In this document: positions 1,008-58,574 of the stretch, piece by piece
Layout of the letters: the number at the start of each line of letters is the position of its first letter
Numbering within the stretch: the stretch's first letter is position 1
From: Idiomarina aquatica
GTDB lineage: Bacteria; Pseudomonadota; Gammaproteobacteria; Enterobacterales; Alteromonadaceae
Direction: 5' to 3'
Assembly: GCF_003987185.1 (NCBI RefSeq)
Contig: NZ_PIPS01000004.1
Coordinates: 124,001-188,000 of the forward strand
DNA: 64,000 bases
The notes under the pieces: generated by a model
The model's input: only the letters and a program-made list of their open reading frames with translations
Databases searched by the model: none
Told to the model about the DNA's origin: nothing
Made by a program: the position numbers and the translations under genes

Positions 1008-3721
1008 TGCATGCTGGATTGGTCGTTTCGGCGACTGACCTGTGTTATCACTATCGAAAAACCACCGCGCTCAATGGCATCTCGCTGGCGATTCCGCGAG
1101 GCCAACTTTGCGGCTTTATCGGCCCCGACGGGGTCGGCAAATCGACGTTATTATCCCTAATCGCCGGCGCCCGCGCAGTTCAGCGCGGCCAGTTGCAAGT
1201 CCTTGCACAGGACATTACTTCGCGACGATCGCGAAAGCTATTGATGCGGCAGATCGCCTATATGCCACAAGGGCTCGGGAAAAACCTTTATCCAACGCTG
1301 TCGGTACTGGAGAACTTAACGTTTTTTGCCAAACTCTTCGCCATTCCTGCCAAGCAGCGAGACGAACGGGTCAAACGGCTGCTAACCGCGACTGACTTGT
1401 GGTCGTTTCGTCACCGCCCCAGTGGCAAATTATCGGGCGGAATGAAACAAAAGCTTGGCCTTTGCTGTGCGCTGGTTCATAACCCCGATTTACTCCTGTT
1501 AGACGAGCCCACCACGGGTGTTGACCCCCTTTCACGCCGGCAGTTCTGGAAACTGATCAGTGAAATACGTCAACAGCAGCCTGATATCAGTATTATTGTT
1601 GCCACCGCTTATATGGAAGAGGCTGAACAGTTCGACTGGCTGGCCACCATTAACAACGGCCAATTACTCACCAGTGGCAAACCTGCGCAATTATTGGCAG
1701 ACACCCAGACGACCTCGCTGGAGCAGGCCTTTATGCGGCTGCTTGGGGTAACGTCTCAAGCAACCCCGAATCCACCGCAACCCCGACCCGAACACGACCG
1801 GGCTATCGCCATAGAAGCACAGCACCTGACGCTTAAGTTTGGAGCGTTTACGGCGGTTGATGACGCCAGTTTTCGGATCAATAAAGGCGAAATTTTTGGT
1901 TTTCTCGGTTCCAACGGTTGCGGCAAAACCACCACCATGAAAATGCTTACCGGGCTACTACCACCAACCTCCGGCAGTGCTGCACTGTTTGGTCAGCCGA
2001 TCACCCATTACGATATCGAAACGCGGAAACGGGTCGGCTACATGACGCAAACGTTTTCGTTGTACGAAGAGCTCACCGTTGCGCAAAACCTGAAACTGCA
2101 CGGCAAGCTTTTCGGACTGAGTCATGAACAGCTAACCGAGCGCATAGAAATATTGGCGCAACAACTGGATCTCAGCGCACTGATGCCACAACTCGCGAAA
2201 CAGCTTCCGGTTGGCGAACGTCAGCGCTTATCGCTGGCCGTTGCCCTTATCCACGAACCGGACATTCTCATTCTCGATGAACCCACATCCGGGGTTGATC
2301 CTGTTGCCCGAGACACGTTTTGGCGCCAGCTTCAGGTGCTGGCACGGCAACACGGCGTGACGTTATTCATTTCCACCCATTTTATGAATGAGGCTGAGCG
2401 TTGCGACCGTATTTCGCTAATGCATGCGGGTAAAGTGCTGGTCACCGATACTCCGGCGGCCATCACACAAGCCAGTGGTAAAGACAGCTTAGAGGACGCC
2501 TTTGTTTACTATCTTGCACAGGCTCAGCCTGATACGGCGACACCCCGCGTATCATCACCAACGCAGCGGGATGAGGTGGTGGTACAACGTCGCGGTTTTA
2601 GCCTGTCGCGCCTACTCAGTATCAGCCATCGTGAAACCATTGAATTGATGCGCGACCCGGTGCGACTTGCCATGGCATTGATTGGCAGCGTGATTCTGAT
2701 GTTTGTCCTCGGATATGGCATCAACATGGATGTCGATGAAATCGATTTTGCCGTGCTGGATCGTGACCGAACCAGTGTCAGTCGCGATTACACGCTCAAT
2801 TTATCGGGCTCGCCGTATTTTCATCAGCAGGACGAGCTCACCGACTACACCGAACTGGAGCAACGGTTACGCTCGGCCGACATTAGCCTGGCCATCGAAA
2901 TTCCGACAAACTTTGCCAGCAACCTGCAGCGCGGCAATCAGGTCGAACTGGGGGCGTGGATAGATGGTTCGATGCCGATGCGGGGCGAGACCATTCAGGG
3001 CTATGTGCAGGGCATGCACGCTGAATGGTTAAACTATCAACTGAGTCTGCAGCCAAGCGCGCCGTCTAACCCCGGCCGAATTTCGGTTGAAAGCCGATAT
3101 CGCTACAATCCTGACATAGAGAGCCTCGCTGCCATGGTACCTGCGGTCATTCCGCTGTTACTGATGCTGTTTCCTGCCATTCTCACGTCCCTGTCAGTAG
3201 TGCGCGAAAAAGAGCTCGGTTCTATCACTAATTTTTACGTAACCCCGACCCGTAAAAGCGAATTTTTCCTCGGTAAACAGTTGCCCTATCTGGCACTGGC
3301 AATGCTTAACTTTTTTATTTTACTGGTGCAGGCCATCTTTGTGTTTGACGTCGAGCTCAAGGGCAGCCTGATGGCACTGACGCTCGCCTCGCTGCTTTAT
3401 GTCGTCGTTGCGACGGCGTTAGGGCTTATTATGTCCGCCTTTCTCAATAGCCAAATCGCGGCGTTATTTGGCACCGCCTTAGCAACCATTCTGCCGGCAT
3501 CGCAGTTTTCCGGCATGATCACTCCGGTTACGTCGCTCGACGGACTGGCACGTTGGATAGGCGAAATTTACCCAACCAGCTACTACATGATCGCGAGTCG
3601 AGGCGCTTTCTCGAAAGCACTGGGATTTGGCGACCTGACAGTGATGTTGATCGGTCTAGCCGTTGCCGCCGTGTTGTTCACAATGATTGGCATTATGTTG
3701 GTGAAAAAGCAGGAGCGCTAA
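1007..3721 (+). CDS. rbbA: Fused ABC ATPase/permease, RbbA-like
   Basis: 904 residues, close to the size of E. coli RbbA. There are two ATP-binding cassettes: Walker A GPDGVGKST near residue 39 and GSNGCGKTT near 301. The first has the signature LSGGMKQK and the Walker B segment LLLLDEP; the second has ILILDEP. An ABC-2 type membrane domain fills the last ~350 residues. The second cassette carries LPVGERQR where an LSGGQ signature is expected, so the two sites are probably asymmetric. RbbA has been described as a ribosome-associated ATPase, and the family is also read as an exporter. The adaptor upstream and the permease downstream favour export. Substrate unknown. Confidence 0.85.
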   Translation: MHAGLVVSATDLCYHYRKTTALNGISLAIPRGQLCGFIGPDGVGKSTLLSLIAGARAVQRGQLQVLAQDITSRRSRKLLMRQIAYMPQGLGKNLYPTLSVLENLTFFAKLFAIPAKQRDERVKRLLTATDLWSFRHRPSGKLSGGMKQKLGLCCALVHNPDLLLLDEPTTGVDPLSRRQFWKLISEIRQQQPDISIIVATAYMEEAEQFDWLATINNGQLLTSGKPAQLLADTQTTSLEQAFMRLLGVTSQATPNPPQPRPEHDRAIAIEAQHLTLKFGAFTAVDDASFRINKGEIFGFLGSNGCGKTTTMKMLTGLLPPTSGSAALFGQPITHYDIETRKRVGYMTQTFSLYEELTVAQNLKLHGKLFGLSHEQLTERIEILAQQLDLSALMPQLAKQLPVGERQRLSLAVALIHEPDILILDEPTSGVDPVARDTFWRQLQVLARQHGVTLFISTHFMNEAERCDRISLMHAGKVLVTDTPAAITQASGKDSLEDAFVYYLAQAQPDTATPRVSSPTQRDEVVVQRRGFSLSRLLSISHRETIELMRDPVRLAMALIGSVILMFVLGYGINMDVDEIDFAVLDRDRTSVSRDYTLNLSGSPYFHQQDELTDYTELEQRLRSADISLAIEIPTNFASNLQRGNQVELGAWIDGSMPMRGETIQGYVQGMHAEWLNYQLSLQPSAPSNPGRISVESRYRYNPDIESLAAMVPAVIPLLLMLFPAILTSLSVVREKELGSITNFYVTPTRKSEFFLGKQLPYLALAMLNFFILLVQAIFVFDVELKGSLMALTLASLLYVVVATALGLIMSAFLNSQIAALFGTALATILPASQFSGMITPVTSLDGLARWIGEIYPTSYYMIASRGAFSKALGFGDLTVMLIGLAVAAVLFTMIGIMLVKKQER

Positions 3722-5874: not shown

Positions 5875-7185
5875 ATGTTCTTAACCAAAGGTAAAGTCAC
5901 TGAATATTTAGAGGCCTTCGCAGAAGGTAGCCTCGACGCAAACGAGGCTCCCGACTGGATGGCTCCCCTATTTCGGAATGATTCGAGTAGCATGGATGCA
6001 TTTGGGCTTGCTGATAGCAGCATCGACTCGATCCGCAACATCGTCCGTTTTGGCCGAGAAGGGCTGACATTCCAGGAGCAAATCAACGGTTTGGAGTCGG
6101 ACTCTGAGCAGTTGGCTACGGCCGTCGAAGAGTTATCGTCGTCAGCAACACAGGTTGCCGCCTATGCAGAACAAGTACTGTCGGCCGCTGAGCAATCCGC
6201 ACAGGATGCGGACAGTGGTTTACAGAAATTAAAAACCCTGGTGCAGCATATGGGGGAAGTCGAGTCATCGATTTCACGGGTTACTGAACACACCCGAGCA
6301 TTCGTTAATCAGACCGAACGCATCACTCATTTGACGCAAACCGTGAACGAAATTGCCGACCAGACCAATTTATTGGCGCTCAACGCAGCTATCGAAGCCG
6401 CGCGGGCCGGTGAGGCCGGACGGGGCTTTTCTGTTGTCGCCGACGCGGTTCGTGAGCTGGCTACCCGTAGCTCTGAAGCGGCTACCGAAATTGATACTAT
6501 CGTTACCGATGTTGTTAAAGGAGCGCGCGATATTGAAGCCGTTATCGAAACCAGTAACGAAGCATTAACCGAATCCCGTGACGATCGTTCGCAAGTTTGC
6601 GACATTCTCGAGCGTGCACGAAACTCGGCAGAAGAAAATCTCTCAGCCACAACCGAAGTGTCCTCGGCAACACGAGAACAATCGAATGTGGCGCGGGACA
6701 TGGCTGCCCGGCTTCAACACATGTCCGATGCAGTAAAGGTCGCAAATGCATCCTTTAATGATATTGCCAAAGTCATGCGCCAGCTGCGCGAAAACCAACT
6801 GCACGAATTACAAATGCTACCCGATGACGACCCCGCGATGCTACTTCGGTTGGCCAAGGCTGACCATATCGTGTGGGTCGATAAAGTCATTCGCTACGCA
6901 CTTTTCAATCAAACTTCGTTAACCGAGGGCGAACTCAAGGATCATACTCAGTGTCGACTGGGTAAATTCCTTGACTCTGATCGAGGTCAAACGATGCTTG
7001 CGGGTAAAAATAACTTCGCTGAACTGTACAACCATGTTCATCCTAAGGTGCATCAGTTAGGTCGGGATATTTTCAATAACGCCAAGAAAGGCAACCATCA
7101 CGAAGCGCTAGAGCCGATGATTGAAGAACTGATTGCCACATCGGATCGGGTTGTCGGGCTGCTCGACGAGTTTATTTCCGACTAG
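5875..7185 (+). CDS. Soluble methyl-accepting chemotaxis protein with C-terminal CZB domain
   Basis: 436 residues with no predicted membrane helix. The highly conserved MCP hairpin tip lies mid-protein ([20 protein letters not shown]), inside long amphipathic helices. The last ~110 residues carry the zinc-binding CZB pattern: a His in KADHIVW, CRLGKFL, and the HPKVH motif. CZB domains of soluble receptors and diguanylate cyclases bind zinc and can sense redox or hypochlorous acid, so this is likely a cytoplasmic sensor feeding the CheA/CheW array. It is a monocistronic gene preceded by an AAGGATAAAGG ribosome site and overlaps convergent yjbQ by four bases. Confidence 0.88.
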
Positions 7186-45265: not shown

Positions 45266-46489
45266 TCATAATAAATCTCTCAGTTGTAACGAAAGCTTAG
45301 TAAGGGCACTTTTTCGTTCCTCAAAGTAATCATGCCGATCATAAATCCCCTCAATTCCCTTCAGTTTGTGATTGAGGCAGCGCTCAGCAACATGACCAGG
45401 AACACCAATACTAGCTAATAGTGTTCGGCATGTCCTTCGTAAATCATGCACTCTGAAGTACTCCATGTCTCCCATTAGGTTAGGAGGGTTAGTATTCTTA
45501 CCTGGCTCGTAACCAAACATTTTCCCAATTGCGCGGTTCAGCGTATCTTCCCCCATATGAGGTCTCTTCGCTTGTCTTCGACTAGGTAATACATACTCTG
45601 AATCTGAAGAGCGCACTTTAAGCTCTGTAATCATTTCTAAGGCCAGTTCCGGTAAAGGTATGGTAAGGCCTACCCCAGACTTACTTCGTTCTTTAGGTAA
45701 TTCCCATATGGCCTTATCAAGGTCAAACTCGCTCCACTTAGCCTCACATATCTCTGACTTTCTTACTCCCAGCAAAACTAGCAAAGCACACGCAAGGTAG
45801 TTATCTCGAGTGAATACGTGTTGATGCTCGCGAAAAGTTTTAAATGCTGTCGTTACTTCATCCAGTGTTAAAGCTCTATCACGACTTTTCTCTACCCCAC
45901 CAGCATCACTGACCTTAAATGAACTTGCTGGGTTAGCCCCCACAACATCTATCTTAATCCCATGGTTAAACAACTGCTTGCAGTATAGGAGCGCGTCATT
46001 CGATATGGTTGGACGCCCGGACTCATTGATTGATGTGATGATCCTACGAATATCTCTCGCAGTCACTTGGTCAAGGTTCAACTCTCCAATTAAAGGGGCT
46101 ATGTCCTTTCGATAAACTCTTTCAGGGATATTCCAATGTTTCAGCCGTTTACGGTTGTCTTCCTGCCAGTCCTCAAACAGATCGTTAACTGTTTTAATCT
46201 CCTGCATTTCAGACTGCTTTTTGAGCGCCAGCGGATTTTGTCCCCCTCGCACCTGCTTCATTTTCAAGGCGGCTTCTGCCCTTGCCTCCGCAAGGGACAA
46301 GTCAGAATACTTTCCGAGAGTCATTTCACGACGCTTTTTATTGAAGCTATAGCGAAGCATCCAGTAGGGGATTCCAGGTCCACCTGAAGTTGTGGCCGGA
46401 ACAACAAAATATAACCCACCACCATCAGGGTGACGCCCTACCTTATTCTTAGCTAGGGACTTAATCCCATTAACCGTTAATTTTGCCAA
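45266..46489 (-). CDS. int: P4-type tyrosine integrase of the island
   Basis: 407 residues. The N-terminal DUF4102 arm-binding domain (GRHPDGGGLYFVV, MTLGKYSDLSLAEAR) is followed by the core-binding domain and the catalytic domain with Arg in LLGVRKSEICEA, HDLRRTCRT, and the final His/Tyr in CLNHKLKGIEGIYDRHDY. It lies next to the intact yicC end, with ACCCACCA repeats just upstream of its start. It should catalyse integration at, and excision from, the yicC 3' end together with AlpA. Confidence 0.93.
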   Translation of the reverse strand: MAKLTVNGIKSLAKNKVGRHPDGGGLYFVVPATTSGGPGIPYWMLRYSFNKKRREMTLGKYSDLSLAEARAEAALKMKQVRGGQNPLALKKQSEMQEIKTVNDLFEDWQEDNRKRLKHWNIPERVYRKDIAPLIGELNLDQVTARDIRRIITSINESGRPTISNDALLYCKQLFNHGIKIDVVGANPASSFKVSDAGGVEKSRDRALTLDEVTTAFKTFREHQHVFTRDNYLACALLVLLGVRKSEICEAKWSEFDLDKAIWELPKERSKSGVGLTIPLPELALEMITELKVRSSDSEYVLPSRRQAKRPHMGEDTLNRAIGKMFGYEPGKNTNPPNLMGDMEYFRVHDLRRTCRTLLASIGVPGHVAERCLNHKLKGIEGIYDRHDYFEERKSALTKLSLQLRDLL

Positions 46490-49848: not shown

Positions 49849-51528
49849 TTATAGCTGCTCTTCTGGTTGGTAAGCAATACCAATTTTGCCGTTAATGATT
49901 TGACATTCACCACCTGCGCTGGCCGTACGGCTGCTGTCATCGATGCGTGCAACCAGACGGTAGTCGTTATTTAATAACGTCATTTCTTTACGATCGCCAC
50001 ACAATACTCGCATCGAATCGATTAAGCCGCGATCACTCAAGAAGTTGGTGGTTGGCTCGGTTTTAACGATGTTGCTGCCTTTCGAAAACTCTGCCGTTTG
50101 CAGGCCAAACGGGTTCATCATACCGGACGCTCCAGCGACCAAATAATGAAACGTTGCCGCGACGGCGTTTGCTGCACCTTGCGCATGTTCGACGAAGAAC
50201 ACCCCACGTTCACCGATGATATCGAAATCGCCTTTTTCCAGATTTACCAGCATGGCGGTATTCTCATCAATACCGATGGATAGTGGCGTGGTGCTGTCAG
50301 CAGCTAATCGAATTAAACGGCCCTGCCGGCCACGCTCTGAGAAGTGTGTATCCAGGCTGGCAAAATGAAACAGTGCCAGGCCACCAAACGGGTGATAAGT
50401 CAGCGTATCAGGGCCGGTATTAGCCGGGCAGGTGTTATCCAGGTCACAGCCGAACGGCGGTGGATTGGTGGCGACGCTGCCATCTTTAATTGCCGATGCT
50501 GTGGTACCGTTGGAAATCATTGGTTTTGCGGTTAACACCGCAGTACCTGCGCTGGTTCCGCCGACCACCAGCTTCTTCTGCTGGACTCTGGCGACGATCA
50601 TACGCAGTAGATCTGATGGGCTGTTATCGTCCTTGACGAACGTATTACGTGTCAGGTTCTGGTCACCGCCATTAAAAAATATCGCGTCGGCATTGGCGAG
50701 CATTTCATACTCTGCTTCCGCGGACTTACAAAATTCTACCTGTTGCTGGTAATCGTCACGATGGACCCGATCCCGATCGTACGCACCGAGCACTTCTTCC
50801 TGAACCTCGTTGAGTTCGTCACAACGGCCTTCTGCGCGCGCTTCAACCACCGCTGAATCCAACGGCAACCAGCGTGCATCGGCGCCAAGCTGGGTAAATA
50901 AGCTGTGATAGAAATCGATGGCTTCATATGGGTCACGAGAGGCTGAGGTTGAAAAGTAAACGACCGGCTGCTTACCTTCTGCGACATTTTGAGCGGCAAT
51001 GTCCATGAAGCGGCGGTACAGTGATGCAGCCTCTTGGTTCAATGATTCGTCGACATTGACCACTTCCGGGAAGTCACTCGACATCGGTACTTCCAGCAGA
51101 TCAATGATCTTCGCATACTCGGCGTCAGACAGCAGGTTGTACGTTGGCAGTGTCGCCCGGCGGGTAAACTCGCGTTCGAAAACACGCTCGGAGATGATGT
51201 CTTCATTCACCCGTTCGTGAATCAACTCCAAGGCATCGACGACTTTCTTCCGGGTTTCCTCACGGTAAGCGCTCCAGACTCGGTCAGAGGTGGCCTCAAG
51301 ACGAAATTTCTCGGATAGATTCAAATAACGGTCAGTGCGCATTTTTTCGCTATCAATCCAGTCAACCTCATCACAGTTGTTGGAATTAAAGCTTGAGCAC
51401 AACGTCAGTGCACCACCTGCCATGAATAAATGGCGATAGTTGTCGTCATTTTCCTGAGCTACCGCGCTCGACATTCCGGCTGCCGTTAATGCAGCGAACG
51501 CAAGACTTTGAGTAACGCGCTTGAACAT
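49849..51528 (-). CDS. Secreted cyanophycinase-like S51 peptidase
   Basis: 559 residues from the ATG preceded by AGAGG; nine more codons are open upstream. Signal peptide ends AVAQ. Peptidase S51 features: FFNGGDQNLTR near 284-294, nucleophile elbow GGTSAGTAV with Ser326, and DTHFSERGRQGRL near 393-405, a signature of cyanophycinases. These cut multi-L-arginyl-poly-L-aspartate into beta-Asp-Arg dipeptides. It is longer than typical cyanophycinase because of a ~130-residue N-terminal region. Divergent from a TonB receptor and peptide genes. Confidence 0.82.
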   Translation of the reverse strand: MFKRVTQSLAFAALTAAGMSSAVAQENDDNYRHLFMAGGALTLCSSFNSNNCDEVDWIDSEKMRTDRYLNLSEKFRLEATSDRVWSAYREETRKKVVDALELIHERVNEDIISERVFEREFTRRATLPTYNLLSDAEYAKIIDLLEVPMSSDFPEVVNVDESLNQEAASLYRRFMDIAAQNVAEGKQPVVYFSTSASRDPYEAIDFYHSLFTQLGADARWLPLDSAVVEARAEGRCDELNEVQEEVLGAYDRDRVHRDDYQQQVEFCKSAEAEYEMLANADAIFFNGGDQNLTRNTFVKDDNSPSDLLRMIVARVQQKKLVVGGTSAGTAVLTAKPMISNGTTASAIKDGSVATNPPPFGCDLDNTCPANTGPDTLTYHPFGGLALFHFASLDTHFSERGRQGRLIRLAADSTTPLSIGIDENTAMLVNLEKGDFDIIGERGVFFVEHAQGAANAVAATFHYLVAGASGMMNPFGLQTAEFSKGSNIVKTEPTTNFLSDRGLIDSMRVLCGDRKEMTLLNNDYRLVARIDDSSRTASAGGECQIINGKIGIAYQPEEQL

Positions 51529-51937
51529 AAATTCAGACCTCTGTTGATACATCACCGCATACGTAGAGCGACACTACTATGCTATTTAGTAAAATTGACA
51601 GCCTTTCACGCTAATGCTATCCCTATAAAACAGTCAATGCTGACTGCGATAATAAGAACATTATAACGACTATGCTGAAAAAAGCTTATCAACTATCCAG
51701 CTATCACTACGATAGCTTCTACTTGTCAGAATGGTTTGACGAATAGGCCACGGTAACCGCCCGGTTACTGCGGCGAGCGTGTGTCGAATCACCTCTTCCG
51801 CTTTGGCTATCTAGCCAACTCATCGTTATTCATGAGCCGCCGTCTGTCCGATTTGTGACAGGACTCGTGACATAAAATTCCCTGCCGTTGAGCAGGTTTC
51901 TCTAAAAATAATTAAAAAACCACAAAGGAGATTTATT
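51529..51937. promoter_or_regulatory. Divergent control region of cyanophycin-type locus
   Basis: 409 bp without a gene. TTGACA at 51595 with TATCCC 17 bp on could be a rightward promoter with a long leader. Two direct GTGACA words at 51855 and 51867 lie near the receptor start and may be regulator half sites. The receptor has a consensus AAAGGAG ribosome site. Assignments are by eye. Confidence 0.4.
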
Positions 51938-54535
51938 ATGTCCAAGTGGAGTCTGATCGTACCCGTAGCGGGTCTGTGCCTATCCCCGATCGCGGCTGCT
52001 ATGCAGCAAGCGCAGGACGCACAACAAACCGAACAACAACAAGACGTTGAAACTATCCAGGTCACCGGTTCACGCCTAAAAGGGGTGGACATGGAAGGTG
52101 CTAATCCAGTTCAAGTATTTAGCCAGGAAGATATTGTCGATCGTGGTCACCTTACCATCGGTTCGTTTCTGCGCGATTTACCTCAGGCGGCAACAGCCGG
52201 CACGTTTACCACCAACGGCAACGTCGGTGGTGCTGATGGTGCGCCGGCGGGTTCAGCCGGGGTTAGTTTACGAGGTTTAGGAAGCAGTTCGACATTGGTG
52301 CTGGTTAACGGTCGCCGTGTTAACGTCAGCTCGTTTGCCAATGGCTCCGATTCGTTTGTCAATGTGAACAACATCCCTATGGCGGCGATTGAACGGGTGG
52401 ATGTACTCACCGACGGCGCGTCCAGTGTCTACGGTTCTGATGCCATCGCGGGTGTCATTAACTTTATTCTACGCGATGACTACGAAGGCCACGAACTCTC
52501 GCTGATGTACGGTGATGACACCGCCAGTTCCGATGCCAGCCGTGTCAATGCCACTTATGTCGGTGGTTTCTCCACCAAGAATTCAAACACCACGGTCATT
52601 CTTGATGTGGTCAAACAAAATGCTCTATTTAACTCAGACCGCCCCATCGATGTTACTTATGAGTCAAATACCTTTGTTGAAATCGACGGCACCGAATACG
52701 CCGAACCGTACTGCAACGACGGTACCGCGGTAGCCGGCGAGCGTTGTGATTATGACTACGTCATACAGCGTGCGATCCAACCGGATTATGACAACATGGG
52801 GGCTACGCTCAGTCACATTTATCGTATCGACGACACCACTGAGTTTTTTGCTGAAGCGATGTACCAACAGAATGAAGGGCACGCCTACGATTCGGGTGCG
52901 GCCTTTTCGGTTACCGTTCCTGCTGACTCACCGATGATTCCCGATTGGGCTAAGCAAATCGATCAGCAGGACGGCAGCGAAGACCCTATCTATGTTGATT
53001 CCCGTTTTCCGGATCGCCGAACACAGAGTTACACCGATGAATCAATCCGGGTATTGGCCGGCCTGCGTGGTGAATTCGATTACTGGCAATGGGAAACCGC
53101 GTTAGCCTACGGCAAGACCGAAAATGAAATTCTGCATACCGGTGGCTTTTATTCAGTAGCCGCGGTCGATGCGGCAACGGCGGCTGGCGAGTTTAATCCA
53201 TTCAACTTGGGGCGTGACAACAGCGAGGCTGTGCTGGCATCGCTACGCACATTAGCGCCGCGTCGTGGTGAATCGGAGCTTACCTCTTTTGATTTTAACC
53301 TCAGTGGCGATCTGTTCCAATTACCCGCCGGCTACGTTAAATCCGTCTTTGGGGGCGAATATCGTACCGAAGAAATTTGGGATAATCCCGCTGATATTGC
53401 CGCCAACAACGGTGTGTTTGCGTTAGGTGCGAGTCAGGCCGCTGCCGATCGTGACCAGTATGCTGTTTACGGTGAGTTTCATGTGCCGTTAACCGATACC
53501 ATTGATACCATTTGGGCGTTGCGCTATGACCATTATTCCGACTTTGGCGGCGACACCAATCCAAAAGTATCGATTCGCTGGCGTGCAACCGATGATCTTG
53601 TCCTGCGTGCTTCGGCAAGTACGGGTTTCCGCGCGCCATCGCTTAACCAGTTGGGTGCCGGAACGTCATTATCCGCGGCCTATGTTGACTGTGAAGCAGG
53701 TTCTCCGTATGCCAGCTTATGTGGTGACAATGGCGCAGCGTTGGGCGAATTAGAGCTGGATCAGGAAACCATCGGTAACCCTAATCTCAAAGCCGAAAAC
53801 TCAACCGCCTATAATACCGGTGTGTCATGGAACATTACTGAAAACTGGCAAGTTACCGCCGATTACTGGCGTTACGACCATGAAGATATTGTCGATATCG
53901 ATGCCAATACAACGTTGGACGCCTGTGTTGCCGGTAACGCGCCTGTGGTCAACACCATTGCTGAATTAAACGGTGAGTTTGGCTGTGTGGTCGATGGTGA
54001 CGGTGATATTTTTTATATGCGCACCGGCTACTTTAATGTTGGTGAGCAAACCACCGATGGCCTCGACATCAACACCAATTACGATCTCGACACAGACGCT
54101 TATGGCCAATTCAAATTGTTTGCAACGGCCACAAAGACCTTCAGTTATGAGCGTAAGGCCACCGAGGATGCCGAACCCGAAGACTTGCTCGGTCGTTTGA
54201 GCGGGGCTGCCGAAATTGCCCGTCCTGATTTTGTTGCCGACTTCGGTGTGCAGTGGTATCAAGGCGCAATTGATGCCAGCCTGATCGGCCATTATGTCAG
54301 CAGTATGGGCGACGGTGACTTCCAGTGGGGCGGCAACACTGAGGTCGATTCCTGGCTAACCTGGAATGCCAGCTTTGGTTATCAAATTATGGACAACCAC
54401 AAACTGTTGTTAACGGTCAGTAACCTGTTGGACGAGGAGCCTCCTTATGCCTCATCGCCAACCAATGGCTATGCGTCGTCAATTCATGACTGGATGGGAC
54501 GTGAAGTCGGTTTACGTTACACCGTTAACTTCTAA
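51938..54535 (+). CDS. TonB-dependent receptor, probable beta-aspartyl peptide/cyanophycin fragment importer
   Basis: 865 residues. Signal peptide (SKWSLIVPVAGLCLSPIAAA), a Gln-rich stretch, TonB box VETIQVTGSRL, a plug to ~residue 210 (SLRGLGSSSTLVLVNGRRV, TDGASSVYGSDAIAGV) and a large barrel ending in VNF. Receptors of this subclass are common next to peptidases in marine gammaproteobacteria. Substrate is inferred from the divergent cyanophycinase-like gene and the downstream transporter and dipeptidase. Confidence 0.85.
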   Translation: MSKWSLIVPVAGLCLSPIAAAMQQAQDAQQTEQQQDVETIQVTGSRLKGVDMEGANPVQVFSQEDIVDRGHLTIGSFLRDLPQAATAGTFTTNGNVGGADGAPAGSAGVSLRGLGSSSTLVLVNGRRVNVSSFANGSDSFVNVNNIPMAAIERVDVLTDGASSVYGSDAIAGVINFILRDDYEGHELSLMYGDDTASSDASRVNATYVGGFSTKNSNTTVILDVVKQNALFNSDRPIDVTYESNTFVEIDGTEYAEPYCNDGTAVAGERCDYDYVIQRAIQPDYDNMGATLSHIYRIDDTTEFFAEAMYQQNEGHAYDSGAAFSVTVPADSPMIPDWAKQIDQQDGSEDPIYVDSRFPDRRTQSYTDESIRVLAGLRGEFDYWQWETALAYGKTENEILHTGGFYSVAAVDAATAAGEFNPFNLGRDNSEAVLASLRTLAPRRGESELTSFDFNLSGDLFQLPAGYVKSVFGGEYRTEEIWDNPADIAANNGVFALGASQAAADRDQYAVYGEFHVPLTDTIDTIWALRYDHYSDFGGDTNPKVSIRWRATDDLVLRASASTGFRAPSLNQLGAGTSLSAAYVDCEAGSPYASLCGDNGAALGELELDQETIGNPNLKAENSTAYNTGVSWNITENWQVTADYWRYDHEDIVDIDANTTLDACVAGNAPVVNTIAELNGEFGCVVDGDGDIFYMRTGYFNVGEQTTDGLDINTNYDLDTDAYGQFKLFATATKTFSYERKATEDAEPEDLLGRLSGAAEIARPDFVADFGVQWYQGAIDASLIGHYVSSMGDGDFQWGGNTEVDSWLTWNASFGYQIMDNHKLLLTVSNLLDEEPPYASSPTNGYASSIHDWMGREVGLRYTVNF

Positions 54536-54546
54536 CGGCAAACGCG

Positions 54547-55992
54547 ATGACAAATCATAACCAAAAGATGGCCATGCCCGATGCGTTGGTCATCTTATTC
54601 TTCGTTTCATTGTTCGCAGCACTAACCGCCTGGTTAGTGCCTGCGGGCGCTTTTACGGTACAAACCGTTGAGCAAGACAGTGCCAATGGCACAACCTCAA
54701 GAACCGTTATCGAACCCGGAAGTTTTCAATACGCCGACGAAGCATCCAGTGCACCACCGCTATTTGCCGAAGGTGGTGACATGGGCCTGGCTAATGTTGC
54801 CTTCGAAGGGTTGGTGTCCGGCACCAAATGGGGTTCTGCCATTGGCGTTATTGCCTTCATTCTTATCGTTGGTGGCTCCTTCGGTATCATTTTAAAAACA
54901 CAGGCCATTGAGAATGGCGTATTGCGTCTGATTCAAAAAACGCAGGCCTTTGACCGCGCGTTTTTAGTCGCCATGTTTCTCTTATTTTCACTGGGTGGCG
55001 CCATTTTTGGTATGGGAGAAGAAGCCATCGCATTTTGTCTGGTGCTGTATCCGGTGATGCGGTCGTTGGGCTATAACGCCGCCACGACGGTACTCATCAC
55101 CTATGTTGCCACACAAATTGGCTTTGCTACGTCATGGATGAACCCGTTCAGCGTCGCCATCGCTCAGGGCATCGCCGAAGTACCGCTGTTGTCCGGTGCT
55201 GCATACCGCGGTTTATTGTGGTTCTGCTTTACCTTGCTGGGATTGGTTTTTACGCTGCGGTACAGCGAACGAACCAAGTCACAGGCGGCGAGAGGCCAGG
55301 CGGAAACCATCAACGCACGCTTTAGCGCCACCGACGGCAGTATTTTATTGGTGTTCTTGGTTGGCTTAATTTGGGTTATCTGGGGCGTAACCACCCGTGC
55401 CTATTACATTCCCGAAATTGCCGCACAATTCTTTGTTATTGGGATTATTGCCGGTCTCGTAGCCATAGTCGGTAAACGCTTGACAGCCAATGGTGTCGCT
55501 GACGCGTTTAATCAGGGCGCTAAAGACTTGTTGCCGGCGGCTCTAATCGTAGGCTTTGCCAAAGGGCTGGTTCTGCTGCTTGGCGGCGACGACCCGGCTA
55601 CGCCATCAACACTAAATACCATTTTGCACCATACCAGTAACGCCATCGGTGATTTTTCAGCCGCCAGCAGTGCGGTGTTGATGTTGGTCTTCCAGTCGGT
55701 ATTTAATTTCTTTATTGCATCCGGTTCGGGTCAGGCGGCACTTACCATGCCGCTGATGGCACCGTTATCGGACCTCGTCGGTGTCAGTCGTCAAATCGCC
55801 GTACTGGCCTTTCAACTTGGTGATGGGCTGACTAATATTGTGATTCCAACGTCTGCTTCATTAATTGGCTGTCTCGGCGCCGTCAAATTAGGCTGGGGTG
55901 ACTGGCTGAAAGTGATTTGGCGCTTCCAGCTTTTGCTCATGTTAATGTCTGTCGCCGCCATCGTTATCGCTGTACTGATAGGATTTAAGTAG
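54547..55992 (+). CDS. YfcC-family inner-membrane transporter
   Basis: 481 residues with ~12 hydrophobic helices. YfcC family landmarks: an early FAALTAWLVPAGAF, GGAIFGMGEEAIAF, SWMNPFSVAIAQGIAEVPLLSG split over two helices, and NFFIASGSGQAALTMPLMAP. Related carriers take up amino acids, arginine/ornithine or peptides. It starts 12 bp after the receptor stop and is followed three bases later by the dipeptidase-like gene, so it likely brings the dipeptide into the cytoplasm. Confidence 0.82.
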   Translation: MTNHNQKMAMPDALVILFFVSLFAALTAWLVPAGAFTVQTVEQDSANGTTSRTVIEPGSFQYADEASSAPPLFAEGGDMGLANVAFEGLVSGTKWGSAIGVIAFILIVGGSFGIILKTQAIENGVLRLIQKTQAFDRAFLVAMFLLFSLGGAIFGMGEEAIAFCLVLYPVMRSLGYNAATTVLITYVATQIGFATSWMNPFSVAIAQGIAEVPLLSGAAYRGLLWFCFTLLGLVFTLRYSERTKSQAARGQAETINARFSATDGSILLVFLVGLIWVIWGVTTRAYYIPEIAAQFFVIGIIAGLVAIVGKRLTANGVADAFNQGAKDLLPAALIVGFAKGLVLLLGGDDPATPSTLNTILHHTSNAIGDFSAASSAVLMLVFQSVFNFFIASGSGQAALTMPLMAPLSDLVGVSRQIAVLAFQLGDGLTNIVIPTSASLIGCLGAVKLGWGDWLKVIWRFQLLLMLMSVAAIVIAVLIGFK

Positions 55993-55995
55993 TTT

Positions 55996-57168
55996 ATGTT
56001 AACACTGATTAAAAACGCCCGTGTTTTTTCACCCGCCGATCAGGGCCTAAACGATGTTTTGATGGCCAACGGTAGTATTGCCGCTATCGCACCTGAGCTG
56101 ACCTTAACCGGTTCCGGCGTTGACGTCGAAACGATAGATGCAGAAGCACGCTGGCTGGTGCCGGGCTTTGTTGACCCGCTCGCTCACTTTAACGGTGGCG
56201 GTGGCGAGGGTGGTTTTCACACTCGCACGCCGGTTATGCCAATTACCGACGCCATTGAGGCAGGTATCGCAACCATGGTATCCGGGCTTGGCACCGACGC
56301 GTCGACCCGCACCTTAGAAGATATGCTGGCGAACGCCCATGGTTTGTCCAACCTGGGCTTAACCACCTATTGCTATACCGGCAGCTACCAGTATCCTGTC
56401 GTGACCGTGACCGGCAGCATTCGCAATGACCTTATCCTGATCGATAAGATGATAGGCATTGGTGAACTGGCGATCGCTGACAAGCGCGGCTCACAGCTTA
56501 CTGCTGCCGAACTCGCCCGGGTCGCCAGTGAAGCAAAAGTTGGTGGTTTGCTGAGCGGGAAAGCCGGCGTTACCTTTTTGCATGTCGGCGACGAACAAAG
56601 CCAACTCTCTCTTATCGAGCAGGTAACGCAGGACTTCGACGTTGACGTTAATCAGTTCTATCCAACTCACATTAATCGCCACACCGGGCTTGTGCAGCAG
56701 GGAGCTCACCTTGCCAAGCAAGGTATGATGCTCGACCTTACCTGCTCGACGACACCCGAGCTTGTCGCTGAAGGGGAGATCCCGGCCGCTAAATGCGTCG
56801 CGAAACTGCTTGATCTTGGTGTCGCTGTCTCACAGATCAGCATCAGTACCGACGCCAATGCCAGCCTGCCGGACTTTGACGCCCATGGACAATTACGAGG
56901 GTTAAAGGTTGGTCGCGCCGTCAGTCTGCTAGAAACCGTACAGGAATGTCTGCGTGACGGCATTCCACCGGCAACGGTTTTTGCTGTGGCGGCCAGCAAT
57001 GCGGCTAAGCGGCTTAAGTTAGACCACAAGGGAACCATTGAAATCGGTGCTGATGCCGACCTCAACTTGCTGTGCCCGGACAGCTTCACACTCACCGATG
57101 TCTGGTACCGGGGTCGTAGGATGATGAATAATGGCGAAATTTTGCAACGTGGATATTTTCAGCCGTAA
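55996..57168 (+). CDS. Isoaspartyl-dipeptidase-like amidohydrolase with altered metal motif
   Basis: 390 residues, IadA length. PGFVDPLAHFNGGGGEGG corresponds to the IadA start motif, but the expected H-x-H reads L-A-H (Leu62, His64). Other landmarks remain: VGGLLSGKAGVTFLHVGD, PTHINRH (His225) and STDANAS (Asp286). IadA cleaves isoaspartyl dipeptides, the product class of cyanophycinase, which fits the operon. The missing His may reduce the active site to one metal or change the reaction. Confidence 0.75.
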   Translation: MLTLIKNARVFSPADQGLNDVLMANGSIAAIAPELTLTGSGVDVETIDAEARWLVPGFVDPLAHFNGGGGEGGFHTRTPVMPITDAIEAGIATMVSGLGTDASTRTLEDMLANAHGLSNLGLTTYCYTGSYQYPVVTVTGSIRNDLILIDKMIGIGELAIADKRGSQLTAAELARVASEAKVGGLLSGKAGVTFLHVGDEQSQLSLIEQVTQDFDVDVNQFYPTHINRHTGLVQQGAHLAKQGMMLDLTCSTTPELVAEGEIPAAKCVAKLLDLGVAVSQISISTDANASLPDFDAHGQLRGLKVGRAVSLLETVQECLRDGIPPATVFAVAASNAAKRLKLDHKGTIEIGADADLNLLCPDSFTLTDVWYRGRRMMNNGEILQRGYFQP

Positions 57169-57218
57169 ACTGGTATACTGACTCGGTCTTATTCTGTCAT
57201 CCAAAGACCCGTTGTTGT

Positions 57219-58574
57219 ATGAAATTTATTGTTTTACTTGCATTGTTGAGCACCCTGCTATCGGTGTTCTCTGCCGGAGCTCAACAATCACTGACTTTTC
57301 GCGAGCCTACTCCCGGGCCGATGGTGAATTATGTCACTGCGGTACTGGAAGAGGCATACGCCGATTTAGGGGTAGAGCTTAACTATCAGCCTCTGCCTCG
57401 TTTGCGTGCGGAACAACTCGCAGAAAGCGGTGAAATTGCGGGTGAACTTGGCCGCCTGGCCAACTTAGAAGAACAACTGCCGTCGTTAAACCGGGTACCC
57501 TTTCGCTTGTACGAATTTTCCATTGTGCTTGTGGCGAAGCGCAGCGAGTGTGGCCTGTGCACAATAAAAGCGATTGATAGCGTCGCCCACGTAAGCGGTA
57601 TGCGAGCTGCCGAAAAAGTACTGGAGGATGCCGACTTTGACCGGCCGGTATTTCAACAAACGAAATTCGAGCAGGTCGCGAAACTGCTCAATTCAGGGCG
57701 CATCGATGCCGCGTTAATCGCCGATTTTCAATTACGCAACCTAACCTTGGAAAATCCCGGCGACTATGTGATTTACCGTTTACGAGATGAAGCCGGGTAC
57801 CATTACCTGCATGACAGCTATAAACACTTGATTGAGCCGCTCTATCAGCGCCTCAGCGCAATGAAAGCATCTGGTCGATTGGCGGCGTTGAAAAAACAGT
57901 ATCAATTGGAGCTACCTGATCAACTGCGCCCGATCGATATGCCAACGCAATTCGTCGCCGCCAGTTCCATTCAGCCGGGCCTGACCAATGCCGACGGCAG
58001 CGGCAGTTTATGGGAATTGATAAGCCAACTGCTGGCCAATGCCGTAGACGAGCTTGAAACCTCAGCCAGTAATTGGCCTCGCGCACGCAATTTGTTAGTG
58101 GAGCAACGCGCGCACCTGCTGGTTGGTGTACAGAAGCATCAGTTCGAGGCTGATTTCATCTATTCTGAGCTGCCCATCGCCATGGACGACGCTTTATACC
58201 TGTTCACAACGGATGACACGGTCGAGCAAGAACTGCTCAGCGGCAACCAGGACCATACCGTTTGTTATTCGGGCAGTGACGTACAGCGCACATTTTTGCC
58301 CAAGCACGTGTCCTATTATAAAGCCAATGCGCCATTGGACTGCTTTGCTATGCTGGACTTAAATCGTGTCGATGGTGTTATCGACTATAAACACAACTTG
58401 CCTGACTGGACTGAAAAGCCATATCGGCGCGAGCGTCTGAGAGATCCCGTACCGCTGTACCTGGCATTTAATAACAATGAAATCGGGCAATTGCTAAAGG
58501 CGCACTTAGATCGCGCCCTCAAATCCCAACTGCCGCCAGGCCTCGTAGGCGAAAATCGCAACACAATTCGATAA
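57219..58574 (+). CDS. Exported tandem periplasmic-binding-fold protein
   Basis: 451 residues with a signal peptide ending SAGAQ. Two type II binding-protein-like halves: residues ~25-230 ([25 protein letters not shown], a small-ligand-binding pattern) and ~245-445, the second more diverged. Such double proteins without ABC genes may be sensors or scavengers. Follows the dipeptidase-like gene by 50 bp and may belong to its operon. Its last 69 bases overlap convergent trmL. Confidence 0.65.

Follow-up and report, generated by a model that had tools for sequence, protein, structure and literature searches.

The window, a stretch of 64,000 nucleotides of Idiomarina DNA (contig NZ_PIPS01000004.1) from a 2.97-Mb genome assembled in 8 contigs, carries at positions 49849 to 58574 a group of genes that probably serves the scavenging of cyanophycin or a very similar polymer. 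The initial annotation had described five genes there, a secreted S51 cyanophycinase-like enzyme divergent from a TonB receptor, a YfcC carrier, an IadA-like dipeptidase and a tandem binding protein. All five open reading frames (ORFs) are in place and scans against family models agree with the assignments. The most unusual feature of the locus, a leader ORF of 24 codons at 51672-51746, had been overlooked. The features are listed below.

49849-51555, minus strand: S51 cyanophycinase-like ORF, opening at GTG 51555
51672-51746, plus strand: 24-codon leader ORF, MLKKAYQLSSYHYDSFYLSEWFDE and stop, 191 bases upstream of the TonB receptor start
51747..51846, plus strand: initial 100 bases of the leader-to-receptor spacer, C more frequent than G across relatives, possible Rho-loading stretch
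51938-54535, plus strand: TonB-dependent outer-membrane receptor, 865 amino acids (aa), Pfam plug and barrel
54547-55992, plus strand: YfcC-family inner-membrane carrier, 481 aa, Pfam DcuC and NCBIfam YfcC
55996-57168, plus strand: IadA-like isoaspartyl dipeptidase, 390 aa, Leu62 replacing the first His of HxH, Pfam amidohydrolase and NCBIfam
57219-58574, plus strand: tandem periplasmic binding protein of 451 aa, an accessory restricted to certain lineages

The S51 protein matches the Pfam S51 model with 26.0 bits (cut-off 23.9), the carrier matches NCBIfam YfcC with 652 (cut-off 500) and the IadA-like protein matches TIGR01975, isoaspartyl dipeptidase, with 402.1 bits (cut-off 331.25). The gaps between receptor, YfcC, IadA and binding-protein genes on the plus strand are 11, 3 and 50 bases, as expected of a single transcription unit. 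The start of the S51 gene is probably the ATG at 51528 and not the GTG at 51555. Read in this way (49849..51528, minus strand) it gives a protein of 559 aa, the length also found in I. aquatica and I. seosinensis, and identity to their proteins is 81% and 77%, respectively.

We first saw the leader when aligning the spacer between the S51 and receptor genes. It is present in 119 of 119 divergent spacers shorter than 900 bases, some genomes being counted twice. Among 116 non-identical leaders, 110 have exactly 24 codons from the ATG, and every one of the 116 stop codons (TAG 80, TAA 36, TGA 0) can be read by release factor 1 (RF1). In the 24-residue ends (111 leaders), Tyr17-Leu-Ser-Glu-Trp21 and Glu24 are fixed, position 22 is Phe or Trp and position 23 is Asp or Asn; that is, the C-terminus is YLSEW[F/W][D/N]E, directly followed by the stop. 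All six Ser codons are used at position 19 and all six Leu codons at position 18. The ratio of nonsynonymous to synonymous differences (pN/pS) amounts to 0.31 for codons 2-24 and falls to 0.09 for codons 17-24, compared to 1.15 and 1.25 in the two other frames. RNAalifold gave no consensus structure among 43 non-redundant leaders. Because of the low in-frame pN/pS, the varied Ser and Leu codons and the lack of a consensus structure, we conclude that the peptide is conserved and not the DNA or an RNA fold. A riboswitch was considered and rejected: Rfam has no match in the spacer, and its sole match, with 19.3 bits where the gathering score is 35, lies inside the S51 gene. The leader peptide has no match among Pfam and NCBIfam models, a weak test at such length, and the leader contains no run of Arg, Asp or any single codon. 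The strings SEWFDE, SEWFNE and SEWWDE were not found in the open-licence literature, nor was a paper on the leader there. In the accessible part of a survey of cis-acting RNAs in Shewanella (PMC2659441), the two TonB entries are thiamine pyrophosphate (TPP) and cobalamin riboswitches and nothing is said of the leader. The leader is apparently undescribed, and it is the part of the locus likely to surprise a specialist.

Its position was followed across relatives. An S51 protein is encoded in 88 of 196 sampled genomes of the window's family. Loci were read at these places, in the rest of the genus and at 20 places in other families; with 13 short CphE-type or distant S51 loci set aside, 123 long-form S51 loci were left, 75 with YfcC and/or IadA within 8.5 kb (loci with the cassette) and 48 without. 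The leader occurs in 70 of the 75 loci with the cassette and in 1 of the 48 without, L186, which lies on a contig of 3,795 bases. The first module gene 3' of the leader, placed for 111 of the 116, is the receptor in 99, YfcC in 10 and neither in 2 (L186, where the contig ends, and L120, where an S51 gene follows). At L183 and L191 the receptor and YfcC-IadA are transcribed as separate units, both with a leader copy of their own, and genome G033 has one leader ahead of YfcC (L095) and another ahead of a distant receptor (L264). A strict DNA pattern for the leader end gave 62 matches in 59 of 192 genomes of the family, compared to 0 for a control pattern. S51 loci account for 58 of the 62 (a count by locus gives 59, of which L074 belongs to a genome outside the 192); three of the other four (L262, L263, L264) precede a receptor with 64-91% identity to module receptors, and the fourth (L261) precedes a different S51 gene. 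This last leader ends at 1527 of its stretch and heads a secreted protein with PPC and S51 parts (ORF 1610-3001), and the leader at L120, ending at 6316, precedes another kind of secreted S51 protein; in neither stretch read is there a cassette.

Leaders were also read in families f92 and f99. In a sample of the phylum, 9 of 396 genomes match the leader pattern: five belong to the window's family, three are Shewanella-type and G587 comes from another family of the class. In this second family 48 of 250 genomes match. The five contexts read out of these 48 (L273-L277) contain, in this order, the leader, a binding protein (SBP_bac_3 in L273, homologues in the other four) and an IadA-type match, and in 5 of 5 there is neither a TonB receptor nor an S51 gene in the 3-kb stretches. 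The N-terminal part of the second-family leaders differs and the final residues before the stop stay fixed.

By its position and its duplication the leader behaves like a cis element, and we infer that it acts in cis. Alternatively, such an ORF could encode a microprotein that works in trans, associated for instance with a membrane or with the receptor, and be no regulatory leader at all. The very strong conservation at the peptide level and the use of all six Ser and all six Leu codons at two fixed positions would suit such a protein. However, the ORF heads units, precedes whichever module gene comes first and is doubled where the unit is split (L183, L191, and L095 with L264), and its N-terminal part varies from family to family, the residues just ahead of the stop being fixed. 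We therefore regard a microprotein acting in trans as quite unlikely.

As a cis element, a short ORF that heads a catabolic unit and is conserved up to its stop codon, the leader is by analogy probably a sensor of the TnaC or SpeFL kind. The resemblance lies in the fixed C-terminus at an RF1-readable stop, the variable N-terminus, the absence of codon runs and a spacer with more C than G after the stop. C exceeds G in 94 of 114 spacers in the first 50 bases downstream of the leader, in 92 of 114 in the second 50 and in 56 of 114 in the third, compared to 50 of 115 upstream. According to the sections of PMC8429421 available, TnaC likewise has 24 residues and is a short leader ORF ahead of an operon for uptake and catabolism, conserved residues of TnaC and SpeFL run up to the stop codon as they do here, and SpeFL inhibits RF1, the factor that can read all 116 stops of our leaders. 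Unlike those peptides as given in that source, the leader has no WFNID motif and ends in Glu and not Pro, and no sequence relation is detectable by eye. The fixed C-terminus may hold the terminating ribosome when a metabolite of the pathway is present, and, as TnaC is described to do, the stalled ribosome would keep Rho-type termination from occurring before the structural genes. The leader would in this way probably regulate the receptor-carrier-dipeptidase unit in cis. Since the receptor, YfcC, S51 and the units of binding protein and IadA share the use of beta-aspartyl peptides, beta-Asp-Arg or its product would be the likeliest signal. A classical amino-acid attenuator, in which pausing at scarce leader codons governs an intrinsic terminator, would have a leader of this position and length, and a terminator-like hairpin is found in 18 of 115 spacers (0 of 115 in mononucleotide shuffles; six of the 15 listed are near-copies of one sequence). 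But the leader has no run of a single codon, terminators are not general and the 43 leaders examined with RNAalifold share no structure, and we consider classical attenuation very unlikely.

The cassette itself recurs. In most loci the S51 gene is divergent from receptor-YfcC-IadA. YfcC-IadA without an adjoining receptor is seen, e.g., at L076, L086 and L095, a single operon of receptor-YfcC-IadA-S51 at L117, L146, L148, L156 and L258, and the arrangement S51-YfcC-IadA at L198 and L199. The other neighbours vary by lineage, and what stays constant are the cassette genes, S51 and the leader. A separate set of 80 named loci, outside the 123-locus counts and found with patterns that demanded intact motifs, has YfcC or IadA in 71. 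With their counterparts in G072 (L046), the window receptor, YfcC and IadA share 89, 75 and 74% identity. For the receptor the next closest is that of G199 (L222) with 76%, followed by Shewanella-type receptors (61-64%) and the second receptor of Rheinheimera texasensis (62%), while receptors of most other genera have approximately 30-34% identity. The proposal that the window YfcC and IadA are most like those of Shewanella was rejected by comparison against the window's own proteins, identities to Shewanella being 51-59% for YfcC and 45-53% for IadA, with no Shewanella bias. Because the receptor leans to the Shewanella type while YfcC and IadA do not, it may have a history of its own. The second receptor of R. 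texasensis (L066 5583-8216, minus strand) lies beside the module of that organism and has no leader of its own.

Within the genus the S51 gene is present in 19 of 19 genomes and a full-length IadA in 3 of 19 (the window, G072 and G202); the remaining IadA matches are approximately 85 residues of longer, different amidohydrolases. In G199 (L222, 5394-8022), which has the gene order of the window, both YfcC and IadA are broken into two frames and S51 and the receptor are open, and the cassette of this genome is apparently in decay. Since G199 and Pseudidiomarina aestuarii (L104) keep the window's order, S51 divergent from receptor-YfcC-IadA-binding protein, loss of the middle three genes in the other congeners is the simpler reading. 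Some of the genomes surveyed also have shorter S51 proteins with a DQHF motif (L213-L218, L231-L233), with no YfcC, IadA or leader in the stretch read.

The catalytic residues of S51 were compared to the presence of the cassette. The four residues Ser, His, Glu and Gln are intact in 74 of the 75 loci with the cassette, the exception (L207) being a truncated ORF, and altered in 38 of the 48 without it; the Ser-His-Glu triad alone is intact in 74 of 75 and 11 of 48, respectively. We placed 118 of the 123 loci on an S51 tree, leaving out five truncated or short rows and removing the motif columns. At least 9 changes on supported branches of the tree are required to explain the altered state. Ten independent tree pairs gave a mean of 6.8 changing the same way and 0 the opposite way (sign-test median p 0.016, range 0.008-0.063), statistics that are approximate because this is a quick tree with long branches. 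L075, L088 and L096 have no cassette at the position syntenic to that of the cassette in relatives, and the serine is altered in 3 of 3. A neighbour common to three inactive loci had been considered as an analogue of the binding protein and was dropped, as its sequence reads as a glutamate synthase small subunit.

The ratio of nonsynonymous to synonymous substitution rates (dN/dS) is 0.02-0.08 in seven pairs of altered forms (Idiomarina, Aliidiomarina and genus g27), values that are rough for the five pairs with dS near or above 1. Of the other altered pairs one gave 0.19 and two gave no value. Ten intact pairs gave 0.03-0.36, and three intact pairs and one mixed pair no value. Where measurable, the altered forms thus look to be mostly under purifying selection, as would be expected of pseudoenzymes and not of decaying genes. 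Secreted S51 homologues with altered residues are found at L042, L044, L045, L047-L057, L075, L088, L096, L220, L221, L224, L225 and L227-L230, among others.

These results bear on whether the S51 gene and the TonB-YfcC-IadA unit are accidental neighbours with unrelated functions. Most congeners do have S51 without the unit, as the above counts of IadA (3 of 19 and one broken copy) and S51 (19 of 19) show. However, the set recurs across genera of the family and beyond, in changing surroundings, so the grouping is not due to chance, and the alteration of S51 residues where the unit is gone, in the tree pairs and in the locus counts, argues strongly against independence. We consider an accidental grouping extremely improbable.

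The question is then what the secreted enzyme cleaves. Numbered from the GTG, its triad is Ser335-His404-Glu431 and its pocket consists of Gln299, Asp402, Thr403, Arg408, Arg410 and Arg413. The corresponding residues of CphE are Ser171, His224, Glu251, Gln136, Asp222, Thr223, Arg228, Arg230 and Arg233, which the available text of PMC3235067 describes as critical for cyanophycinase activity and as the binding pocket. All 9 of 9 are identical to those given there, including the CphE-specific Thr. An AlphaFold2 model has a mean predicted local distance difference test score (pLDDT) of 91.9. Its nine top PDB matches come from 7uqv, 7uqw and 3en0, all with the molecule name cyanophycinase (7uqv is entered as pseudo-CphB of Pseudobacteroides), and these chains are followed by 6nqc and then by chains of dipeptidase E. 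The template modelling score (TM-score) to the nine chains is 0.73-0.77 by target length and 0.34-0.37 by the longer query. The predicted fold is that of a cyanophycinase, and cyanophycinases are the closest solved relatives by sequence too. At its N-terminus the window protein has approximately 150 additional residues, and its C-terminal part is longer too. A putative secretion signal, MFKRVTQSLAFAALTAAGMSSAVA-Q, was read by eye, and conserved cysteines fit export. CphE of Pseudomonas alcaligenes, as far as PMC3235067 was available, is likewise a secreted S51 enzyme with Thr where CphB has Gln; it has approximately 420 aa, whereas most long forms here have approximately 550-630 aa through the extra N-terminal residues and the longer C-terminal part. 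From its sequence, the window enzyme would belong to a longer, divergent branch that matches CphE in every residue tested, with a predicted cyanophycinase activity.

No CphA1 match over the cut-off was found in the window genome. We rejected storage of cyanophycin by the organism itself, as the strongest CphA-like match has 345.9 bits against a cut-off of 850 and is not CphA1. It is a protein of 804 aa with two ATP-grasp halves and an acylphosphatase domain. At this place (L003 103-2517 and 2514-3578, minus strand, near 788-792 kb of contig C1) the gene of the CphA-like protein overlaps the end of a TupA-like ATP-grasp ORF, the two being a putative ligase pair.

In the dipeptidase the motif reads Leu62-Ala-His64. 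Leu stands for the first His in 132 of 133 IadA proteins of the cassette (some organisms counted twice) and in 5 of 5 of the second family, and the second His, the bridging Glu, two more His and the Asp are present in 133 of 133. The roles of these His, Glu and Asp residues in the metal site, including those of HxH, are as we take them to be in IadA. The five PDB sequences shown, of nine matched, have His at the position of Leu62; compared by sequence to IadA of 7cdh, 7cf6, 5xgw and 8dqn, the other metal-site residues are kept and the first His of HxH is Leu here. Some amidohydrolases work with one metal, and the LxH form may by analogy be a one-metal enzyme.

The tandem binding protein has no Pfam or NCBIfam match at E 0.001. 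A profile of its family matches amino-acid binding proteins weakly (best E 0.0004), and a model built with seven sequences (pLDDT 84.6) resembles the tandem binding domains of GlnPQ and the periplasmic parts of BvgS and EvgS. In Idiomarina, P. aestuarii and genus g27 the protein is encoded next to S51, whether S51 is intact or altered. It is absent from the widely conserved core, a correction to the initial annotation. No permease gene adjoins the window copy (57219-58574, plus strand).

Taken together, we think it likely that the locus is a scavenging operon, probably controlled by the leader, whose substrate would be cyanophycin or a beta-aspartyl polymer much like it. Outside the inner membrane the secreted S51 enzyme would cut the polymer into beta-Asp-Arg, the TonB receptor would bring the products across the outer membrane, YfcC would carry the dipeptide into the cytoplasm and the IadA-like enzyme would split it into Asp and Arg. 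Such a scavenging role had been suggested in the initial annotation, and it is strengthened by the recurring module, the CphE-type active site, the lack of CphA1 and the catalytic decay without the cassette; the binding protein is outside the conserved core. The idea of a dedicated receptor as something new does not hold, since Tang et al. 2012 (PMC3400609), in the part seen, had already noted that in Citromicrobium sp. JLT1363 a TonB receptor gene lies near one for cyanophycinase and proposed cyanophycin as its substrate. One case is given in that part, and here a module with IadA, YfcC and leader extends across many genera. Clusters of cyanophycinase, IadA and a transporter were described by Sharon and Schmeing 2023 (PMC10206079), who cite Ben Hania et al.; as given in the available text, the cyanophycinase, isoaspartyl dipeptidase and transporter are at most 5 kb apart, in genomes without CphA1. 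The window has S51, a putative cyanophycinase, and IadA within 5 kb, a transporter and no CphA1. In contrast to those clusters it has the TonB receptor, YfcC, the leader and an IadA without one metal-site His; "TonB" is absent from that main text, in which the leader was not searched for. Scavenging clusters and a TonB receptor for cyanophycin are thus already proposed in print, and what is new are the leader, the LxH IadA and the alteration of S51 without the cassette. In the literature searched we found nothing on the substrate of YfcC.

A related possibility is an operon for isoaspartyl peptides generally, from aged or damaged protein, in which S51 would be a secreted beta-aspartyl peptidase and cyanophycin one source among others. 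The second-family leader, which precedes a binding protein and IadA with no receptor or S51 gene in the 3-kb stretches of 5 of 5 loci, would fit this, and in the accessible text of PMC10206079 one IadA and one IaaA from cyanophycin clusters are promiscuous. Against it, linkage between the S51 gene and the cassette is tight, and the enzyme keeps the CphE pocket (Arg408, Arg410, Arg413, Gln299), critical according to the part of PMC3235067 seen. We consider such a general operon unlikely, and prefer cyanophycin or a very similar polymer.

Several observations weigh against the scavenging operon and its control as we read them. The S51 protein has 100.7 bits for the NCBIfam cyanophycinase model TIGR02069, whose cut-off is 126.6. 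The YfcC model is named putative basic amino acid antiporter, and because of this name YfcC might carry Arg and not the dipeptide. Leu62 departs from the HxH motif of IadA. Ten of the 48 loci without the cassette keep all four S51 residues, one of them being L186 on its short contig. Five loci with the cassette have no leader (L197-L199, which form one S51 branch, L207 and L209), one leader copy of L183 has no ATG in reach, and 2 of the 48 second-family matches end in TGA. In that family C exceeds G in 5, 4 and 5 of 5 spacers in successive blocks, but also in 5 of 5 upstream, and so gives no evidence. Attenuation is suggested by base composition only, since the leader spacers have no general terminator and no RNA structure across the alignment. 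The binding protein and IadA behind the second-family leader suggest that the common factor may be beta-aspartyl peptides generally and not cyanophycin.

A bolder reading is tentative, and as a whole we find it somewhat improbable. YLSEW[F/W][D/N]E with its stop would be a new metabolite-sensing family, in which a beta-aspartyl dipeptide, or Arg as its product, holds the ribosome at the RF1 stop from within the exit tunnel and switches on the uptake and use of products of cyanophycin breakdown in at least five bacterial families (f1, f7, f16, f92 and f99). The LxH form would be a separate subfamily of IadA, under control of the leader and active with an altered metal site, and the secreted S51 a constrained pseudoenzyme after loss of the unit, paired with the tandem binding protein in Idiomarina and g27.

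As to the surroundings, a link with pyrE, rph, trmL and fieF was rejected, as these are neighbours common to related genera and the module lies in other surroundings elsewhere; that nearby pyrE indicates no link had been said in the initial annotation. A phage-type integrase gene (45266-46489, minus strand; Arm-DNA-bind_3 and Phage_integrase) lies near the conserved rph-pyrE block. A promoter scan of the region found 7 sites compared to 9.8 expected in shuffles and is not informative, and terminator-like sites number 18 compared to 12.3 expected.

Cyanophycin is a nitrogen-rich storage polymer, and to our knowledge it is largely open how other bacteria detect it and take it up. The module offers candidate genes for each step of its use. 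We know of few natural metabolite-sensing arrest peptides, and the leader is a compact candidate sensor in the cultured marine genera Idiomarina, Shewanella, Rheinheimera and Alteromonas. The repeated catalytic alteration in the absence of the cassette serves as a natural experiment that ties the secreted enzyme to the uptake genes, and it leaves a set of secreted S51 pseudoenzymes that appear to be under selection.

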